A DNA stretch of 64,000 bases, from assembly GCF_025118155.1 (NCBI RefSeq), contig NW_026251424.1:62001-126000 (forward strand), written 5' to 3'. The position numbers were made by a program, and so were the translations under genes. Below are positions 2,648-62,529 of this stretch, in pieces. The notes under the pieces were generated by a model. The model saw nothing but the letters and a program-made list of their open reading frames with translations, ran no database searches and was not told the origin of the DNA. This stretch comes from Cokeromyces recurvatus (Eukaryota; Mucoromycota; Mucoromycetes; Mucorales; Mucoraceae). Positions within the stretch are counted from its first letter, which is position 1. Every line of letters begins with the position of its first letter.

Positions 2648-5600
2648 ATGTCAGATTTATCTCCAAAAGAAGATAACCAGTTTAATTTAACTGAATCCAA
2701 TCCTTCACTACAACAGGATGAAGACTCGCCTCTACGTTCATTAAAAAGAAAATTATCACAAGAGGACCAAGTAATTAAGCAAAGTCGTTTCGTACCTTCT
2801 CGACTGTAAAATTTGATATATTTTTTCGTTAAAAAACAAAAAAAAAAAAAAGCTATCAAATGATATTTATTATCTTTTATTTTTTTTTAGTAAAGATACT
2901 TTACGACATAATTTGGTGTTTTCTTCTTTACCTGTTTCTCGTTCAAATACACCTCCTGTAGACGAATCAAGGCCTTCAACACCTTTAACTCAAGCTGTTG
3001 AATCTCAAGACCCACGTTATTTATTAAACATCGTTAAAAACTTAATGCGCACTCGTCATGGAAGCGTCTTGACTAGAAATACAATATTAAAAATGGATCA
3101 TTTTGAAAAAGGTTTCTTTTCTTTTCTTTTTTTCATTTACATAAATTCTATATAAATAACTGTAGTCGAATCTTTACTTTATTCATAGGCATGAATACCA
3201 AACTAGATTTTCATCTTCAGGGTGCACCTAATTTTCGTATAGCAGAACTTGATGTTTACGGTGTAGCACAACCTACTGTAAAGTTCTATATTCATGCTGA
3301 ATGATATTGACTCTAAACACTAATAATTCCTTTTAATTCGCTATAGACCATTGGTTTGTCTACTGTACTCGCACTATTAAACTGTCATCCAAATAGTAAT
3401 GTAAAAGCTTCATGTACTTGGTAAATAAAGAATAAATAAGGAAAGAAAAAGAAATAAATATTAACAGCATAATAATTAGGTTTTTAACACGTGAAGAACC
3501 ATTAAGTAAGTTTATTCTTCCTTTTTTTTTTTTCTGTAATGAATATTTATTAATAATCATGTTATTATAGTCTATTTGAATGGAAACCCTTATGTTTTAC
3601 GTAATTATGCCGATCCATTACAAAATATGGCTGCATTTTTGGGCATTAATACAAGTCGCCTCGAAAAATTAGAAGAAAGATTAAAGCAGGATGTTATTAA
3701 AGAGGCAAAGACGATGGGAGGCCTTATTCTTGTTCATCAAGAACTTGGTAAACCTATTTTTTTTTAACAAATGTCTATTCATTATTTTAATTTTTTTTTT
3801 CTATTTTTTTTTTCCTTTTTTAAGCTGATGGTACCATTGTTCCATGCTTTATTGCCGCTGACCAAGTTCAAACTCCTAAAGAATGTAATACAATTTCTTC
3901 CCCCCCCAAAAAAAAAATAGTAAATTGATCAAATTTATATAGTGTTCGAGGAGTTCCAGAAACTTAATTATAGGTTGAAATACTTTCGTATACCCATTTG
4001 TCCTGAACAAGCTCCAGAAGATAATTACTTTGATGAATATGTACGTATTATCAAGTCATTAAAGCCTACCGACCCGTTGATATTCAATTGTGGTATGGGT
4101 GTAGTAAGAAGTAAGTAGAACAATTGTAAAATATATATTTATATACATGTATACATATAAAAAGGCTCTAAATTGATATAAACAAAATATTAATGATAAA
4201 AAGCTACTGTTGGTATTGTGATTGCTCAAATTATTAGACGTACACAATTACTTGAATTAAATGCTCCTGATCCTTTTCCAATTTCTGGTTACAATTATAC
4301 AGACATGTCAAGTGTAAATACTTCTAGTAAAGTATCATCCTTAAAAGCTTTGACCTCAGATTTAGTAAAAGGCTGGGAAGAAGTAGACACTATTCAATTT
4401 CAAAATCATGCTTTGTTACGATTAGTTTACATCTTAGAACAGGGTAAGTAATAAAAAAAAAGTAAGAGGGGGATATATACTTGTACAAGTTGCTCATTTT
4501 TTATTTAGGGTTAAATTCAAAGATGTCACCTAGATCAGCTATTGAATGGGCACTCGAACGAGGAAGTCTAATTGAAAATCTAAAGGAAGCTATTATGGGT
4601 AACTACAATGTGATTACATCACTTACTGCTGTATTAGATAGCGGTGATTTTAGCAAAAAAATGTTAGATGAAATAATTGATAAATGTAAAGTTAAAAGAA
4701 AAAAAAAGAATATAAATCAATGATAGTGTAGTAATGAATATAATTTGTATTGTAGCTGATGCCGTTATTAATCTTCGGGAAGATATTTTAATGAATCGTA
4801 TTAAGCAAACAACGCAACAATCTTCAGGTCATGAATCAAAGAATAGCTATATATTTAAAGCTGCTGCTGGACTTCAACGATATTATTCTTTATTATGTTT
4901 TGCTGCTTATATCAATGAGTCTCCAGATACAAACTTTAATACTAAATTTTCGGATTGGTTAAAATCAAGAACTGAAATTTTTACAATGTTACAAACGATA
5001 CGACGCAAGAGTCCCAAGCTTTATTTATTTAGACCCGTGGAAGACTTGCATCGTTTGTCACATACTAGTATTTACAGTGCCTCTCTTGACTCACATTATC
5101 GTCACCACGCACTTGGATTTGGTCCTGGCATGTTTGAAATGACAGGAGTAGGCAGTCAACTTGGATCTATTGCACCAGAGCTAGAAGAATTTATTTTGAA
5201 GGTATAAAAAAATAAAAAATAAAAAAATAAAAAAAAAACAGAAGACATAATCACCTTAACTATAACATACATTCATAGTCACGCACAGGTCTTGTACTTA
5301 CTTCACAAACAATCCTAAAAATTGATTTCTGGAGTGCAGCAAGCCAACTTGATGTTGAAGAGTATAATCAGCTGCAAAAGTATCCTACACCTGGGGATGT
5401 AAATACAGAAGAAGATGATTGTGCCAACACAATGAAACGACCTCAACGACATCATGTTTTCTTTGTAGAAGGTGGATCTAACTTTAGACGTATAAAGCAT
5501 ACACATATCTATGGTATTGCTCAGCCAACTGTGGACGGCCTTCGAACTGTACTTCGTCGATTACTGACAGATCAACCCAAGAATGAAAAGATACAATGGA

Positions 5601-8273
5601 TTAATCTTCGTGAAGAGCCTATCATCTATATCAATGGTATCCCTTATGTCCTTCGTGATCGTTACTTTACGCTTCGTAACATAAAGGTCTACAAAGGTAT
5701 TACGGGATCACGTTTAGAACAATTAGAAGATCGGTTGAAACAAGATGTCCTTCGTGAAATTAATAATTATGACGGTCGTATCTTATTGCATGGTGAAGAC
5801 AATGATGGAAATGTTTTAGCTGCTTGGGAAGACGTTGATGTGAATGACGTGATGACAGTACGCGAAGTGATGGAATCTGTAGCTGCGGAAGTTGCTGAGG
5901 AATTTGATAGTGGTTATAGTAGTAGCGATTTTTCGGAAGCCATTTCTAAAAAAAACTACAAAAATATACTTGATTATCATAGAGTCCCTATTACAGCAGA
6001 AAAGGCTCCCGAGTGGTGTGATTTTGATGATATTCGTAATCTTGTTACAAGTACTGACTTGTCCAAAACGGCATTGATTATGTAATTATAGGATATATAT
6101 ATATATATATGTATATATATTAAAGTAAAGAGTATAATAGATACTAATTTACTTTTTTTTTATTTAATAGGAATTGTCAAGTGGGTTTAGGAAGATCTAC
6201 TTTGGGCACCATTATCGCCACACTTGTCACTCGCTGGATTAAACCTACTAGTCATACGTGTCGTGATAATAGCTATCGCAATAAATGCAAATATTTGAAT
6301 TATCAAATTATAAACAGCTTATTACGTGTAATTAAGAATGGGCTAGAAGTTAAGCATCTTGTTGACGATGTTATTGATACTTGTGGTGCTTTTCTTAACT
6401 TACGTGAGATGATTGAATCAGAACATATCAAGTTTGAAAATGAAAATGATGAGGCCAAAAAGAAAGTTCATATCAAACGTGGCATTGCTGCATTACATCG
6501 TTATTTTGTTCTTTTATGCTTTGAGGCCTATTTAGAGTCAACATCACCTGAATCGATGTCTGATACAGAAACATTCGAGTCTTGGCTAAACAGGCATTCA
6601 GAAATTGGTACCTTATTAGCTGAATTCAACGATCTTAATGAAGGTCTTATTGTTCCTGTTGAAAAATCAATTGGTGATGGTGTAGCTCTTTCGAGTGAAA
6701 TCATGAGTGTTGTGGCTAAACGTCATGGCCAAGTATTAGCTCAACAAACAATTATGAAACATGATGCTTTTCCTGGATGTCAGAAGATGAGTTTAAAGGA
6801 AAAGATTGAGGGTGCTTATAACTTTAGACGTGTCCCAGTGAAAGATGTCAAATCATCAGTAAAAGAACCCAACAAAGCGGCTGATGTGAGTGGTTTAGCT
6901 GCTGATCTGGAAAGAAGTGATGATGAGCAGTTAACGCCTCCTTATATTTGTGGTTGCGCAATGCCTTCAAAGGATGCGATTAGGGCTGTTCTTAAATCAA
7001 TGAATGCTGGTCCTGGTGGTAAAAGAAAGGTACTTTGGACATGTCTAAGAGAAGAGCCTGTACTCTATGTAAATAAACAACCTTATGTTCTTCGTTTATT
7101 CCAAGAGCCTTTGAAAAATTTGGAATCAACTGGTATTATAACTGAACGAGTTGAGTTGATGGAAGACCGTATGAAACTCGATGCACTTAATGAATGGAAA
7201 GAATACGAAGGCCGTTTATTGTTACATGATGAAAAACCTAATGACAAAGGAGAATATAAATTGATGGTAAGTATATTAACAAAGTTTTTTTTTCTTTTTA
7301 AAAAAAAAAAAATCTTGTTTAACCTTTTTTATTGTAGGGTATGTGGGAGACAATCAATAGAGAGGATATTGAAACACCCAAAGAAACTTTTCAATCTATT
7401 ATAGATGAAGGCTATCAAGTTGATTATCTTAGAATTCCAATGTAAGTATTTTTTTTTTGACAGAAAAATGATTAACATAAATTCCAATAGTACGGATGAA
7501 CAAGCGCCTATTCCTGATGTGTTTGATCAATTAATTCGTAGAACAAAGAATGCAAATACTGGAGTTGATGTCTTATACAATTGCCAGATGGGGTATTCTA
7601 TTTTGTGTTCTTATGTAAAGCTTTTCTAATTTTTTTCTTATTATTTGTTTTGATTTATAGCCGAGGTCGTACAACTACGGGTATGGTTACAGCTTGTTTA
7701 ACCGCAATGGTGATGAACAATGAGAATTTGCTTGTCAATGAATCGGGCATTATTGTATTTGACTCGCTTAATAAACTTAATGATGAAAAAAGTCTTACAT
7801 ATAATAGTGAAAATGAAGAATCAATGGAAGAAAGTTATCATAATGGAGAGTTTAAAATCATTCTTCAACTTATCAGCGTATTAACCTATGGTAAGCTTGC
7901 AAAATGTCTAACAGATAAAGCAATCAACATGTGCGATCACATGCAAAATCTTCGAAAGGCTATTTATGACTATAAATTACGAATGGACGCTATTGAAGAT
8001 CGGAAATCGAAACAATATAAAGCTATTAGAGAAGTCGCTTTGAATTATTTGATCCGATACTTTTATTTGATTGTATTTGCTAATTATCTGTTAGAACAAC
8101 TAGCATTCTCAAAATTAGAAAAACAAATGAATAGCAATGAGGGAAATCATGAAGAAGAAGGAGAAGCCATTTGTGATGATGGCATGGATAAAGCAGCGAC
8201 TTTTAAGCAATGGCTAGATAATAGAAGGGAAATTACTAATATTTTAAAATTACAGTCTATAGAGTTTGATTAA
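2648..8273 (+). CDS. Paladin-like protein with three tandem PTP-like phytase/phosphatase domains
   Basis: Sixteen exons can be placed (2648-2805, 2891-3111, 3189-3277, 3347-3420, 3480-3505, 3571-3747, 3825-3884, 3943-4110, 4204-4443, 4509-4685, 4756-5201, 5279-6081, 6171-7266, 7338-7441, 7491-7592, 7661-8273). Their sum is divisible by three and gives about 1517 residues. The protein has three repeats. Each begins with a W..LREEP..Y.N..PYVLR block and leads to a CX5R loop: CGMGVVR (repeat 1, near 4088), CQVGLGR (repeat 2, exon junction at 6171) and CQMGRGR (repeat 3, junction at 7592/7661). This architecture matches paladin (PALD1) and the PTP-like phytase (inositol hexakisphosphate) family. 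Animal paladin has been linked to phosphoinositide dephosphorylation; activity here is unproven. All three loops keep Cys and Arg. The repeat count is higher than I expect for animal paladin. Confidence 0.88.
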
Positions 8274-18399: not shown

Positions 18400-19290
18400 A
18401 AAAATTCAGCAATTGGGCAGGAGTATGAACACTGTTAGTTGAGCAACCAATTCATGAGAGAAGCACCAGTATCAGTAGAAGGGTCAGGAGGGAGTTTTCC
18501 ATGGAATATATAATCCATCTCATGCAGTATTGTACAAATCGTTGGCCATCGGACCATCCAAGGAACAGCAACACGTGTTGTTGATGGTTTTTTAGTAGGC
18601 AAAAGATTCAGCAAGAAAGAAAGAGGATCTAGTGCCACTGTTTGACGACAGATGGCAAGCAGTTTAGTATTTGGGCCAGTGCAAAGTTTGTCATGGTATT
18701 GTTGTAGAAAGTCGTGTTGTAGCCGCTTAAACTTGCTTTTGGTAAGGTCATCCAAATTGCGGGTGCATTCTCTCCATAAAGAGTTCTTGGTTAGCTTGTA
18801 CCATTGTGATGTGATTTGCAGACGTCTCCAAGTGGAGTAGTAATTTGGAGAGCAGAGTATCAACAGGTAAATTCATGGATTGTACTAGGTATTTTGTCTG
18901 GAGTATTATGGATCGGTTCATCATCGACGGTTGGTGGGTCATGTGAAGCTTCACTTTAGTAGAGGATCGCAGGGAGGCGCCAAATATGCGACGAAAACAT
19001 TCATTTTGGCAGGCTTCTAGTTGCTTAAGGTGAGAATCGTTGAGAACAGCGATGGCAAGGCCGTATTCCAGTTGTGATCTGATCATCTGGACATAAAAAC
19101 GAACTGAAAGGAGACGGCAAAAACCTTTTGAGTTGACACCGAGAACTGCTATCTGGTTCATTGAAGATCGCGCTTTAGCCGTGTTTTGTTTACTAAGAGC
19201 AGCAGTATCAATAGAACCACCAGCTTTTATATGAATGCCTAAGTATGCAAAAGAGGGTTCACGAGGTAGAGGTGTGTTATATAGGTTACA
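18221..19290 (-). mobile_element. Decayed non-LTR retrotransposon (LINE), 3' part, copy A
   Basis: On the minus strand an ORF from about 19275 reads through SFAYLGIHIKAGG and SQLEYGLAIAV, typical of the post-palm and thumb region of non-LTR reverse transcriptases. The sequence then shifts frame near 18850 and continues to a stop at 18435. Downstream is a 3' UTR interrupted by an A40 run (plus strand, 18358-18397). It ends in a conserved segment (18221-18324) whose last bases, read on the minus strand, are GGCCATAAAAAA. The same segment recurs inverted at 21132-21237. The 5' part of the element (endonuclease, catalytic RT core) is absent. The frameshift and truncation make this a dead copy. 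Confidence 0.82.
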
Positions 19291-20009
19291 TTAGTGATCA
19301 TCATTAAGAGGTGCTGTTTTGAGATCAAAAGATAAGGGAAGAGAAAAAAGAAAAGACAAGTCTGTGAAAACTCGGTATAGTTTATTGAAGAAAAAAATAA
19401 TATAAATATTGTACAAGAAGAAAATAATATGGAAAAATGACAAGGGCTATTTACATGTTTTGCAAGGTAAGTGTGATTTAGATAAGTGAATGCTGCCATT
19501 ACAAAGCCTTTAAGCACAAATTTTGTCTCCGAATAATTCTGCATACAATAAAATATATTTTTATCTTTATTCTCCCTGAGCTGTTACTGTTACTAAAAAT
19601 ATACCCAGTCATTATTTCTGGGGTAAGCAACGCGTTGATATTAATTCACAGTGAATATTCTCGCTATAACAACACCATTATTTATAAACGACTATCATTA
19701 TCATCCTCTGAGATATTATGATATAACAATATTTAATATTATAGATGTATATATAATATATATGACTTGTATAAATAATTATGTAATTGAATATAACAGT
19801 CATAAACCTATTGAATTCTTATTATTACATAATGCAATGTATATAATTATTTTTAACAATGACTATTATTAAAACTGAATATAGAATGAATATTATGCTG
19901 TGAAGTACAATACACTAGTTTTATTTGAATAGTCTCTTTATTATTTAAATAAATGATGGTTTATTTCTATTAACTTAGTTGTAAATACGACTACAATCAT
20001 AACATGTTT
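19291..20009. other. Spacer between the two inverted LINE copies
   Basis: AT-rich sequence separating the outward-facing 3' halves of two related LINE copies. Short ORFs here have no recognisable product. It may be eroded LINE or older host sequence. Confidence 0.4.
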
Positions 20010-21110
20010 CTATGTACAAATGGTACGTTCACAAATGGAATATGGATTAGCGATCTGTGACTCGAATCAATCTCATATAAAGCAACTTGAATAGGGTCAA
20101 AATGAATGTGTATGTAAATTGTATGGCGGATCTCGAACATCTTCGACTAACGTGATGTTACATATGAACAACCAACCTTCAATGAAAGATAGATCAATAA
20201 TACTACAAGCCAAATACATAAGCAGAACACTACAACTAATCTGATGATACCTTGATACAAAAACTATTGCCTCATTTACAAACATCTGCAAGCCGCTCAC
20301 AATGGTGTAAATTAGTCCCTAACCCTCTTTGGCAAAAAAAAATGTGAATCTGTACTAGATACATTGGATCGTCGTGTTTTTAAATCGCTAACACAAAAAT
20401 TTCTACAAGAAAGTCATGACACTCTCTGTAATAGCCCAAATGCCCAAACGGTCTCTACTTTATCATCCAACCTTGGTCATTGATCCTATTTTATGGCTCC
20501 CAATGACACGTATGGAGCGTAATCAGATACTCCGCTGGCGTCTTAGTTGGTTCCCTTGTGGAAAAACTCGTCCCTATCCTGTCCTTTCCATTCTGCAGTT
20601 CATCTTTCTCGTGTCCATGCTACCGAATGTCTGCACATACACCGTCGTCTACAAATGCCCAGGTCCATTAAAGACTCTATTTCTTTCTTACTAAATTTAT
20701 TACCCCTGAAAAAACCAAAAAAAAAGGGTTCCATCTATCTCTTCCTGGTCTGTACGTTGGCCTGACATTTGTTTGATCCTACATGAATTGGATCATATTT
20801 CCCATGATGAAGATCTTCCTCCACCCTATAACTGGTATAGGTGCTAGTTTGGTGAAATGGTTGCATATGATAAAAATACTAGTGTTTCTGTCTTGTTTCT
20901 GAATATTTTTTTTCCTTTCTATCTATCTTTCTTTCGTTTTACTTTCCTCCCTTATTATTTTTTATTTATTCTTCAATACTTTTTTCATTTTCCCTCTTGA
21001 CTCTTAGGAGGTTCTTTTTTTTAACTCTTAACTTCGCGAACTGGTTCGGGCAATATAGTTATTTAAACTATTGTGCTCATTATGACCACTTTTTTTTTAA
21101 TAAATTTATC
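20010..21110 (+). mobile_element. Decayed LINE 3' part, copy B, inverted relative to copy A
   Basis: Plus-strand translation in broken frames gives segments colinear with copy A: SQMEYGLAIC near 20030, QPSMKDRSIILQAKY near 20170 (compare QPSMMNRSIILQTKY in copy A) and SFLLNLLP near 20680. Stops and frameshifts interrupt it throughout, so it is older or less constrained than copy A. It ends in a degenerate version of the shared 3' UTR (CTCTTGACTCTTAGGAGG near 20994 to about 21090). Copies A and B point away from each other. Confidence 0.75.
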
Positions 21111-57945: not shown

Positions 57946-57979
57946 TATAATATATAAAAACCAAATACCTTTTTATATA

Positions 57980-58110
57980 CAATGAAGCTGGAAAATATTG
58001 GCTAATTTAGAAATTTAAATAATGATTGTAAAAAAAAAAAAAAAAAAAATAATTTGGCGCTTGTTAGAAAAAAAAAATGTTGCCGAGAAGCTGGAAAATG
58101 ATTGGCCGTT
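57980..58110 (+). repeat. Left terminal inverted repeat with internal direct repeat
   Basis: The outer ~50 bases mirror 62161-62210 with a few mismatches. A second GAAGCTGGAAAAT-ATTGGC unit recurs about 100 bases inside (near 58088-58107), forming a direct repeat within the inverted repeat, like the IR/DR ends of Sleeping Beauty-type Tc1 elements. Bases 58050-58106 align with the inverted 62095-62160 region at lower identity. Confidence 0.75.
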
Positions 58111-58122
58111 TTAAAAGCTGGT

Positions 58123-58284
58123 TTAAGCACTTGAAATTTCAGCGATTCTTAAGAATAAAGAACCTTTAGCCATCAGATTCTTCCTCTTTGCAAGAACCCA
58201 AAAATTTTCAATTGAATTCAGTTTTGGAAAATATAGAGTTAAATACGTGAGTCTATAGCCTCTGACCTTGCGCCCTTGATTAAA
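58123..58284 (-). pseudogene. Tc1/mariner DDE transposase C-terminal remnant
   Basis: Minus-strand translation reads GYRLTYLTLYFPKLNSIENFW then AKRKNL, closely following the Tc1/pogo-type consensus GY...YLPPYSP.LNPIENFW. The Glu is the third catalytic acidic residue. The reading then continues RIAEISSA to a stop at 58123. The upstream parts with the two catalytic Asp residues are not recognisable; sequence to 58800 is eroded. It is oriented opposite to the Fanzor gene. Confidence 0.72.
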
Positions 58285-58900
58285 CTCATCGTTTTAAAAA
58301 AAAAAAAAAAACTATTATTGTAGACTGATACGCATAGTTAATTTGAACAAGTATGGAGAGAGGTATGTATAAGAAAATATATATTAACAGTTTTATTGAA
58401 GCCTTTATTAATGGTGTTTAGAGTCTGATCAGTCTTCACAATTCAATTATATCTTTGATATGTTTATATACGTGTAAACAAAAAATTTCGCACATGTTCT
58501 CATAAACTATGTCTATCGATAATGGGCTTATATAACTGGAACATGCAGATCAAGGGTTTTATTATAGAACCAGCTTCATTCAATTGTTAATAAGATATTC
58601 ATAAGAGTTCATGTTAAAGTTTATTTACCTGGCTTTGGTTGATTCATTGATAATTATTGATAAATACAAAGAAGAACATAATAGTAATAATAAATAACCC
58701 ATAAATTATGTGTTTATATATGTGTTGGGATATGTCAAAAAAAAAAGTAGTTTGTATATGACTTTATAAATCACTGTTTACCTCTCCCTCTTCTCTTTTT
58801 TATTCCTTTGCATTTGTTCCTCGATTATACAATAAACTAGCAAAGTAATTCTCTTTTTTTAATACTTTATCCAAAAATCCTGAAAACGAACGCTTTGCAA

Positions 58901-61900
58901 ATGCGAAGAAAAAAAGATGATACCGCAATAACAACCTCTCAAAAAGAATCCGCTAAAACAAAGGGTAAAGTATATAGAGAATTATCTACTTTTCTAATAC
59001 TGACCACACGATTGACATGCAGACGCCACGATGACTGTTCCAAAAAACAGCGCCTGGTCCTTCTAACATATATCACGAAACTATCCAAGAAAACTCTGAT
59101 AATGATTTTCAACCCCACTGTTGTTATTAGGAAGAGAAAAGGTATGTACTTTTATGATAGCCTTTTAATGCACGCTAAAACTAACATAAAAACCACATAA
59201 GGCAGAGAAAATACTCAAAATGATGAGTCTCAAAGAAAGAGGGCCAAAGACAAAGAAAGAGCTAGAGATGCAATCCTACCTGACGTCCAATATAATGTGG
59301 GAAGTTCAAGCAACATCGATCCTTCTACAACAATTGAAGTATTTGGTACAAGCATAGTGACTTTGGACGATTACATATCTTGATTCTGACGATGCTTTTT
59401 TTGCGAAACTATCACAAGACAAACTACGTCTGGTGAATCCAGCAAGTTTGCTCTCCGTAAGGAATCCAAAGGTTCTTCAACTTCTACTCTTGCAATATCT
59501 ACTGCTGTTGTTGCTAAATTCACTGCTTCTACTGCTACATCTACTGCTACTGCTTCTATCAAAGCTACTACTACGGGTACTACCAAGACATCCCCCGTTT
59601 CTGAAGCAAGTTCGGTTGCTGCTACAGAAAGAAATATTGAAGTAGCCGACAAACGCATCATAGCGGTAAAGACGACTGTAAAGAACATTTGGAAGCCGGC
59701 ATATATCAAGCCATTACAAAATCTAGTAGATATTACTAATATAATTGTCGGTCACACTTTTGCCTTTATCAAGTATATCTTTGTAAGTGAGTTGGTGAAA
59801 AATATCGAGTTTTACTTGAAAAGCTATGTCAACAAGAGTTTTTATTTTTTTTTTTCTTTTTTGAAGTATTCTTGAGTCTTACCCTGAGACGAGTGCATGA
59901 TGGTACCAAATCTCGAAAAACACGCCTCAAAGAAACAACGAAATTATATAGACAATTGATTGCTAAACACAAAGGCTTATAATGCGAAAATGCCGACTAT
60001 ATTTCACCTAAACTAGCATATGCGCAGCAAATTGCTTTGTACGAATGTACGAAAATTGAAACCGCCTATTACAATAATATCAAAGTTCATTTTTGAGATA
60101 GGCTCCGCGAAATGCTAAACAAGCGTTGCAAAAAAAAAAAAAAAAAAAGAAAAATCAAATGTTCTTCAAGAAAGAATGACGACAAAAGGATATAGCACAA
60201 AAGTTATACAAGCAGCTGTCCGTAAAGAGGTCTTTACTCCCTGCACCCAAGTAAAACTTACTGTGGCAAAAAAAAGAAATACCCAATTCTGACATCTTGG
60301 ATGAAAAGTCAATATCAGAAATAGAAACTCTATTCTCCATATATCCTACAGACTACAGATCCCATAAAGATTCAATTTTCTACGATGTGCTGGCTCGACC
60401 AGTAAATCACTTCAAGGCTTTTCTATAGACTTGCATAACTTGTTGAATCAGAGAAGCTGAAAGAATTCATTTGCTTTCCTATACGAACCACGTTTATTCC
60501 CACATATATGACAGTGGATATTAAGATCGTTAACTTCCATATTCTCAAAAACAAGAAGCCTGCGAAGGATAAAATTGAAACCTGGGTTCAAGTGGCTGAT
60601 TTGAAAAAAAAAGGCTTTTAAAGAACAAGGATTAAATAAGTCTCTTCATTTTGAAGGAACTTTGGAGACTGATGGAATTGGTGTTTCTATTCTGAAGCAA
60701 AATATTACTACAACTAGGAAGAAAAAGCTAACAGAAGATAGCCCTGAAACTTCAAAAAAGGAGGGTGGACCAAGAAGTGACAATGATGCCCAGTATATTG
60801 AAACATTAACACAAGCAGAGCTGGCAAGCACGAATGGAAGATGCGTTTTGATTGATCCCGGAAGACGTGATATTTTATACTGTATGAAAGAAACCAGTGT
60901 GGTCAAGCACGAAGAAATTCTTGTTTTTACAAAAAAAAATGATCGATCAAAAAGATCAAGACACTTTAGAACTTTACGAAAGTCAACTAAACCATCCATG
61001 GTTGAATCCGCTGAAGCTCTTCTTTCCAAAACCCCGTCATCCACTGTAGATGTACTCAAATTTGTAGATTACATTAAGACAAGATCATCGGTGGAAAACG
61101 TATTAAACCAATACTATGGAAATGAAACAAAATCATCCAAAGATCTTTACTTCCCCGGCTCCTTGTTTGACTTTCGTGTGGGTGAGAAAAGCAGCTTGTA
61201 TTTTGGTCATTTACTCGTCTTAAATATTCGAGGTATCATTTCTTCTCCTGACGCTCGAACGCAATCTCAACTGTACCATACATACTTGCAGCTAATGTTG
61301 CAGCAACGACATATCTCAGAGAGATTGGACGATGGAGTCAGAAATACGGTACTTGAACTTGCAGAGAAGATGACCGCAGATGAAGAAGTCAACCTGAAAC
61401 AACATATCAGTGAATTGTTGGAGAAACTTCAAGTTTTGCCATTCCGAAAGCTGAAGTGTTCATCCAAGATTTTCTATGATCAAAATGACCAGATGTTAGT
61501 GAAGAGGTTGAAAAAGAAGTCTGGTCATGATGCGATTCTTGTCATTGGTAATTGATCCGCTCCAAACACAAAATATCACGAGCCAACCAGGAACAAAGAT
61601 CTCATTCGAATGCTGAAGAAAAACGGCTTCCAAGTATTTAATATTGACGAGTAAAAGACTTCTTCATGCTGCCCCAACCTGTGAAAGTTCATTAGAAACG
61701 TTTAAAACAGTCGCCAACCCTCGCCTCCATACACGAGAGAGCCAAAATGCTAACTGTAAAATATCATGGCTTATTGAGGTAAAGTAACAGTATGAATTGT
61801 ATTAATACGACAGAGAATGATAATAATTATTGAACTATTAGATGTAAAAATCGTAACTGTCTGTTGGCCAACCTTGAACAAGTCAAAGAAATCCCACGAA

Positions 61901-62007
61901 AGCTGTGGAATCAAGATATGGCAGCTGTTTTAAACTTTCGAAAGATCTTGATCAGCTTAAGAGAGACAGGTAAACGCCCTGATGTTTTTAGCAGAAAACC
62001 AGAATGA
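58901..62007 (+). pseudogene. Fanzor (eukaryotic TnpB-like RNA-guided nuclease), decayed
   Basis: In order on the plus strand: a lysine-rich start (MRRKKDD, 58901) with plausible introns at 58965-59022 and near 59141-59205; a helical segment KNIWKPAYIKPLQNLVDITN (about 59675-59735) typical of the Fanzor N-terminal region; FPIRTTFIPTYMT near 60480; GTLETDGIGVSIL near 60660; the RuvC-I block VLIDPGRRDILYCM with Asp codon 60854-60856; GN(stop)SAPNTKYHEPTRNK near 61550; NIDE(stop)KTSSCCPN near 61645; LLRCKNRNC across an intron at 61780-61842; and the RuvC-III block LWNQDMAAVLNF near 61910. An intact 297-residue stretch lies at 60662-61555. Stops at 59381, 59387, 61553 and 61652 and several frameshifts disable it. 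Confidence 0.85.
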
Positions 62008-62210
62008 AGGGAATAATAGCAAATCTCTGCCAAAGTTATTGCTTTGGTTATTTAATGCAGAAATGTTGCTCTGAGCTTACTTAAAAATATTGGTGAGCCA
62101 ATCATTTTTTGGTTTTTCACCAACACTTTTTTTTTTTAGTAAGCACTAAATTATTTTGTTATATTCATTATTCAAGTTTCTAAATTAACCAATATTTCCC
62201 AGCTTCACTG
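62008..62210 (+). ncRNA. Candidate guide-RNA (omega-RNA) region and right terminal repeat
   Basis: Fanzor guide RNAs come from non-coding sequence next to the gene, often reaching the transposon end. Here about 200 bases separate the stop from the right border. They contain a hairpin at 62090-62123: TTGGTGA pairs with TCACCAA, and inside it CCAA pairs with TTGG. The last ~50 bases are the right inverted repeat. No experimental or comparative support is available from the sequence alone, so this is a positional prediction. Confidence 0.3.
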
Positions 62211-62212
62211 TA

Positions 62213-62529
62213 AAAGGAATGTAATGTAAATAATTTGTATAAACCATACTGGCACACTTACACACTCATATATATATATATATGTATGTATACATATACA
62301 TATTGTATACAGTTTTATTCTCTACTCTTATCACTACTAATATGCCTTTATTTAATAAAAGTCAGCAGTGGATAACAATTGTTTACGTCATCTGACTTTA
62401 TCTTGTTGACAATAAATAATTCATGCATATTGTTTATTTATTTTATTTTATTTTCTTTCTTTATTTATTTTTATTTTATTTTTTTTACCCTTTTTATTCG
62501 TACAGAAATCAACTTTTTTTTTCTTATTC
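62213..62529. promoter_or_regulatory. COX13 upstream region
   Basis: About 320 bases between the transposon and COX13. A TA/GTAT repeat (62271-62300) is followed by a T/C-rich tract directly before the start codon, a common layout of strongly expressed fungal promoters. No specific site was identified. Confidence 0.4.

Follow-up and report, generated by a model that had tools for sequence, protein, structure and literature searches.

The stretch of DNA analysed here (the window) comprises 64,000 nucleotides of the mucoralean fungus Cokeromyces recurvatus and corresponds to bases 62001-126000 of contig 32; the assembly that was searched contains 28.05 Mb in 64 contigs. Positions 57980-62210 of the window are occupied by a decayed, non-autonomous transposon of the Tc1 type that holds a broken Fanzor1 gene; Fanzor is a DNA-cutting protein directed by RNA, comparable in this to CRISPR enzymes. 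The ends of this element are exact, running from CAATG at 57980 to CACTG at 62210 with a TA on either side, and its inverted arms (57978-58039 and 62151-62212, TA counted in) are 62 nt long each and 85% complementary. A recurring motif of the form AAAATGATTGGC was found inside both ends. The TA target-site duplication and the terminal inverted repeats (TIRs), the latter common to DDE-transposase elements of the same genome (loci L048, L058 and L059), identify the carrier as a member of the Tc1/mariner group. It has no transposase gene of its own; since only a C-terminal remnant is left, 49 codons of which align with a Tc1 transposase piece from the same genome (E=5e-11), the element is classed as non-autonomous. 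The TA-flanked repeats, the transposase remnant and the Tc1/mariner-type carrier reported in an earlier reading of the sequence (the initial annotation) are all borne out by these data. The whole window gave no match in an Rfam search.

The initial annotation placed the Fanzor gene at 60662-62007. Its end at 62007 stands, but the start lies further upstream, the N-terminal part being recognizable from about position 59600. The Fanzor-specific blocks named there (DPGRRD, HEPTRNK, IDE(stop)KTSSCCPN, RCKNRNC and NQDMAAVLNF) are present. When compared with solved structures, the longest open piece (60605-61552) matched the Fanzor1 protein of Parasitella parasitica (PpFz1, PDB 9cf0) at 1.3e-91, with the Fanzor1 of Spizellomyces second at 8.8e-5. 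Three other pieces, 59390-59872 (4.6e-15), 61556-61651 (1.2e-9) and 61834-62004 (9.2e-13), also matched the Parasitella protein. This significant similarity to characterised Fanzor1 proteins assigns the gene to Fanzor1 and not to an unrelated family. The DPG signature of the RuvC domain, given as a criterion for Fanzor1 in PMC10711439, is found as DPGRRD in the open piece. Regarding the motif D-X(125,275)-[TS][TS]-XX-[C4 finger]-X(5,50)-RD, as it is given in PMC3627910, TSSCCPN and CKNRNC are present, but the stretch is split by the probable intron as well as by one stop and one change of frame; the final RD reads QD in the window copy and RD in L070, a related gene described below. The reading frame is not intact, and the window copy is a pseudogene. 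In the Pfam profile search that had been proposed, none of six window pieces scored above the cut-offs, and two weak rows, LptD (0.072) and zf-XS (0.1), lay below them and were taken as chance matches. The family PF26935 is carried in the protein database by 36 of 38 relatives among the matches listed.

Table. Features of the Fanzor1-bearing Tc1-type element (positions in the window)
Feature	Positions	Strand	Remarks
Left TA target-site duplication (...TATA)	57978..57979	.	
Left terminal inverted repeat	57980..58039	+	85% complementary to right arm
Tc1 (DDE) transposase remnant, C-terminal part	58138..58284	-	26/53 identical, E=5e-11
Broken Fanzor1 gene	59600..62007	+	At least 4 stops and at least 4 frame changes relative to a related copy
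Longest open piece, 316 aa	60605..61552	+	DPGRRD and region aligned to the PpFz1 RuvC insertion
Probable intron GT...AG	61779..61841	+	Between GLL and the zinc-finger RCKNRNC; both exons fit the Parasitella protein
Hairpin 1, 7 bp	62029..62048	+	21 bases past the Fanzor stop
Fanzor-specific 3' block, probable first part of guide-RNA scaffold	62034..62095	+	56/62 in L050, 54/62 in L069
Hairpin 2	62090..62123	+	Outer stem 62090-62096/62117-62123, inner stem 62100-62104/62110-62114
Right terminal inverted repeat	62151..62210	-	Possibly 3' part of scaffold
Right TA target-site duplication	62211..62212	.	
Right flank, would-be guide	62213..62232	+	Putative, by analogy with insect-virus guide RNAs (PMC10711439)

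PpFz1, which is reported to cut DNA in vitro (PMC11423790), is by far the closest solved protein (PDB 9cf0-9cf3). The likeness includes the DPGRRD block, the matching region of the RuvC insertion, the zinc-finger half and the C-terminal block. The authors of PMC11423790 found the RuvC insertion in Parasitella and Rhizopus only; the window gene has it too. Unlike PpFz1, the window gene is broken, and its loop at 61200-61260, aligned with a P-x-P of PpFz1 (judged from its spacing to represent the reported cyclophilin contacts P614 and P616), is shortened and lacks that motif. The association of Fanzor1 with Tc/mariner elements, with or without a transposase, was described in 2013 (Bao and Jurka, PMC3627910), and the window copy is a fossil of this known kind. 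The elements PUl-4 and PGv-1, as presented in that work, share with it the TA duplication, the mariner-type TIRs and a Fanzor1 gene for which a transposase is optional, whereas the transposase remnant, two Fanzor lineages on the same ends and deletion derivatives that keep a 3' block are particular to the case described here. No paper linking Fanzor with Cokeromyces, with Mucoromycota or with an empty site was found in a search that left most subscription journals outside, and no priority is claimed.

Related transposase sequences with similar ends were found at five places, on contigs 12 (L048), 40 (L059), 15 (L058 plus a partial one) and 30, with identities of 55-100% among the matches listed, or partial. 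The DDE_3 domain was found in L058 and L059. None of these five elements has an uninterrupted full transposase frame: the gene is in pieces in L048 and split in two in L059, its C-terminal part is open in L058, and the other two contain internal stops. At least 192 Tc1-like matches were present genome-wide, including many with long open frames that are not yet linked to the ends described here. The elements L048, L058 and L059 resemble the window element in their TIRs, the adjoining end sequence and the Tc1 type of transposase, but no Fanzor was found in them and the 3' block described below is missing.

A genome-wide search with the element ends, which the initial annotation had put forward as a check, revealed further copies. 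Lineage A consists of nine copies with the 3' block (the window copy, L049, L051, L052, L053, L056, L060, L061 and L066), of which L060 is truncated where its contig stops; the left end is missing from L061 and L066, and in L056 it is reduced to its outermost bases. Across the exon 60605-61552 the window copy is unbroken, being broken on either side. Six other copies (L049, L051, L052, L053, L061 and L066) cover at least 688 of its 948 bases, and each of them is interrupted by one or more stops or frame changes; L060 covers 380 bases and has a stop, and L056 covers 28 bases. The longest open frame of lineage A among the matches listed has 396 aa. The earlier claim that the family has, or once had, active members is supported, with the past tense preferable, since none of the lineage A genes examined is uninterrupted and the five transposase elements are interrupted or partial. 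The pooled ratio of nonsynonymous to synonymous polymorphism (pN/pS) among eight of the nine A copies (L056 was dropped because only 28 exon bases are covered, and the pair L053/L060 was left out) was 0.51 (95% 0.37-0.70), which shows that the Fanzor protein was under selection during part of the life of the family. G to A and C to T predominate among the changes that are private to a single A copy in this exon, accounting for 66 of 119. The same ends also carry a second lineage, B, in that L050 and L062 contain the remains of another Fanzor; over 218 residues L062 shares 46% identity with the window piece, and L050 has lost most of that exon. A further Fanzor, in L069, is deleted and 40% identical to the window piece.

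Past the Fanzor stop lies a block of 62 nt that is shared by both lineages. Its identity to the window is 56/62 in L050, L054, L055, L065 and L068, 43/49 in L067 and 54/62 in L069, and its alignment scores of 61-87 (78 in L062) compare with shuffle maxima of 22-28. Between the lineages the block retains about 90% identity, as against 46% for the protein of L062 and 40% for that of L069, each compared with the window. A genome search with the block hit 16 places, all 16 within this element family; L067, in which the block has a deletion, was missed by it, and no free-standing guide-RNA gene was seen. Two hairpins can be drawn here, the 3' arm of the second lying inside the part that is shared with the Tc1 ends. 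In 16 aligned copies, 88.9% of the cells were paired, against 37-50% in six slid versions, and changes on both sides of a pair occurred in 14 cells, a number reached by none of 500 shuffles. The first stem of the three solved Fanzor1 guide RNAs has seven pairs, and the Parasitella guide RNA measures 75 nt in total (PMC11423790). In insect viruses, Fanzor1 right-end element RNAs (reRNAs) were measured at the same place and continue past the duplication for about 15 nt; the TIR and the duplication are predicted parts of their scaffold (PMC10711439). The Fanzor1 element of the Spodoptera frugiperda ascovirus described there is, like the window element, non-autonomous and Fanzor-only; it differs in that its transposon family is given as unknown and in that its reRNA was measured, the RNA proposed here being deduced from sequence. 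The 3' block is therefore a good candidate, and the likely one, for a guide-RNA scaffold, and by analogy with the viral reRNAs the right flank would have served as guide.

Five of the elements (L054, L055, L065, L067 and L068) are only about 1.4 kb long and share one internal deletion junction. The deletion took nearly all of the Fanzor gene; what survives of it is a tail of about 45 codons, followed by the 3' block and the right end. Seven places match the left part of lineage B (at least 90% identity over at least 400 bases), namely L050, L062 and these five, so that short elements stand to B copies still holding part of Fanzor as five to two. DNA transposons commonly yield deletion derivatives. 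The five lie at five places with different flanks, which indicates that the deleted form has moved. The short derivatives alone do not show that the block they keep works.

The flanks of the copies were then read by eye. The target motif (TAM) of PpFz1 is given as 5'-ATN (PMC11423790), and with a guide that starts after the TA the corresponding motif consists of the base before the left TA plus that TA. ATA was read at the left end of 10 of 13 copies and its mirror at the right end of 5 of 15 (Fisher two-sided p=0.030), the background in the window being 39%. For these counts L062 was dropped, its duplication reading CA, and L060, L061 and L066 have no left end; no readable right end was available in L062 and L069 and no readable TA in L059, the partial end matches L063 and L064 gave no end, and the target TA of L053 was taken as the one before the shared tract. 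Among six lineage A sites four show TATA, and GATA is found at L069 and at each of the five short elements; among the ATA sites, T against G at that place was 4:0 versus 0:6 (p=0.005). The observation is small, post hoc and no more than suggestive, and it fits the 5'-ATN of PpFz1. In L053, 13 nt at the left junction (TA plus 11, near locus base 5000) equal the right flank of the same locus, which happened in none of 300 shuffles. The element was joined there at a short homology, with a part of the empty site between the left flank and the element. This small, post hoc trace is suggestive of the leftover expected from a cut, or a template switch, slightly into an empty site; a recombination event between alleles with and without the insertion may also have produced it. 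L067 shows a weaker match of 8 nt, reached in 8 of 300 shuffles and placed away from the junction base. In this single assembly an empty counterpart of the window copy was looked for and not found, the matches being limited to both flanks of its occupied site.

The explanation that we consider probable for these observations as a whole is that the window holds a dead, Fanzor1-only Tc1 element, mobilised in trans and retained in a guide-RNA-dependent manner before it decayed. A Tc1 element lost most of its transposase gene and holds a Fanzor1 gene in its place; it would have moved with transposase provided by a complete Tc1 element that shared its ends. An RNA combining the 3' block with the Tc1 right end and continuing into the flank would have partnered the Fanzor protein. 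This protein would have cut the site vacated by the transposon, or an empty sister or homologous site, beside an ATA-type motif, and repair of the cut would have copied the element back. The family was under selection for the protein during part of its life, shed short derivatives with only the presumed guide-RNA end and then decayed. The trace of guide-RNA-dependent retention itself is suggestive and not proven.

Several features of the flanks, the hairpins and the copies weigh against this explanation. With regard to the flanks, L050, L051 and L056 lack ATA, the short elements share ancestry, the left flanks of L054 and L068 look alike over about 16 nt, the ATA pattern was noticed before it was tested, and a junction such as that of L053 was seen in one of 14 loci (the row of L068 being void). 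Whether the left ATA/GATA bias comes from the way the Tc1 transposase chooses its targets, or from chance in a small set of related copies, is in our judgement an even question. Three of the four readable transposase-only ends have ATA (both ends of L048 and that of L057, not that of L058) and one of them has GATA, so that the transposase may favour ATA by itself; moreover, the matched copies, those in which either end can be read, divide just 6 to 1 (sign test p=0.125). However, a two-fold symmetric transposase should bias both sides alike, which the right-side count of 5 in 15 does not show, and the short elements read GATA at the left in five of five cases and the mirror TATC at the right in none of five (p=0.008).

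As for the hairpins, 12 of the 14 doubly changed cells represent one A/B difference at two pairs, so that the both-side changes come down mostly to a single split between the lineages. The number of doubly changed pairs was reached in 120 of 500 shuffles and the number of pair types in 490 of 500, and two pairs of hairpin 1 are broken in lineage B. The folding energy of the window block is ordinary (z -0.49; L054 -1.36, L050 -1.57), and energies were unremarkable save for L061 (-3.55). In addition, the block plus the right end measures about 180 nt, compared with the 75 nt of the PpFz1 guide RNA. It is conceivable, though we think it unlikely, that the block acts as a signal for transposase binding, for splicing or for the mRNA 3' end: the adjacent Tc1 right end carries sequence common to the left end and to the transposase-only elements, and in most A copies the block contains a splice-donor-like GCAGGTATGT. 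Against such a signal, no such block occurs in the transposase-only loci L048, L057, L058 and L059, where scans of the whole loci gave shuffle-level scores of 20-22 and the genome search found no copy; the same loci do share the adjoining Tc1 end (both ends of L048 and one end each of L057, L058 and L059 compared), with scores of 60-83 versus shuffle maxima of 31-34. Furthermore, in left ends the match to the right-end query does not begin before about base 38 of that query, and the block sits at the place reported for Fanzor1 reRNAs (PMC10711439).

A rather doubtful extension of guide-RNA-dependent retention regards the short elements as guide-RNA-only transposons, parasites of a Fanzor acting in trans. 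Cuts made by this Fanzor with their RNA at sites emptied by excision would preserve mainly insertions with the motif on the left (GATA for B, TATA for A), so that the motifs would reflect the sequence preference of the respective Fanzor lineage, and the L053 junction would be an old trace of Fanzor cutting an empty site that was then joined to the element by short homology. This proposal is weakened by the readable left end of L056 and the transposase-only end of L058, which lack ATA.

Regarding the state of the copies, no intact one was found among those examined, and two stop positions in the exon are common to more than one A copy, so that some may descend from a copy that was already broken. 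That Fanzor was a passenger captured by accident and of no service to the transposon, as the breakage of every copy examined and the spread of short Fanzor-less derivatives might suggest, appears improbable given a pN/pS of 0.51 with an upper bound of 0.70 and a 3' block that stayed about 90% identical while protein identity fell below half.

Fanzor homologues also occur outside these ends. L070 (contig 56), a relative of lineage B without recognizable ends, is 49% identical to the window piece; it is itself interrupted, and one exon of it has an open frame of 653 aa (L070:3144-5102, minus strand) that stands head to head with a reverse transcriptase open reading frame (5339-7999, plus strand) of a long interspersed nuclear element (LINE). 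Its 3' flank retains just the first half of the 3' block. A third group of homologues, 40-43% identical (L071, L072 and L073, also L024, L027 and L028), adjoins fragments of the same LINE or lies between them; in L073 the gene is flanked by two inverted LINE arms of 334 bp that are 97% alike. The window contains two diverging fragments from the C-terminal region of a non-LTR (long terminal repeat) retrotransposon, at 18444-19314 (minus) and 20005-20811 (plus), about 690 bases apart. An arrangement of Fanzor homologues between diverging LINE fragments was considered and set aside because the window pair (18444-20811) has no listed Fanzor.

The benefit that Fanzor brings to the transposons carrying it is stated as open in PMC10711439. 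In the one fungal genome studied here, the same Tc1 ends carry two Fanzor lineages, transposase-only elements with similar ends can serve as controls, and protein-less short derivatives retain the 3' block. Such a set makes the idea of retention through cutting of empty sites testable, and the related copies, the protein-less short ones among them, hint at how elements of the Fanzor type persist.

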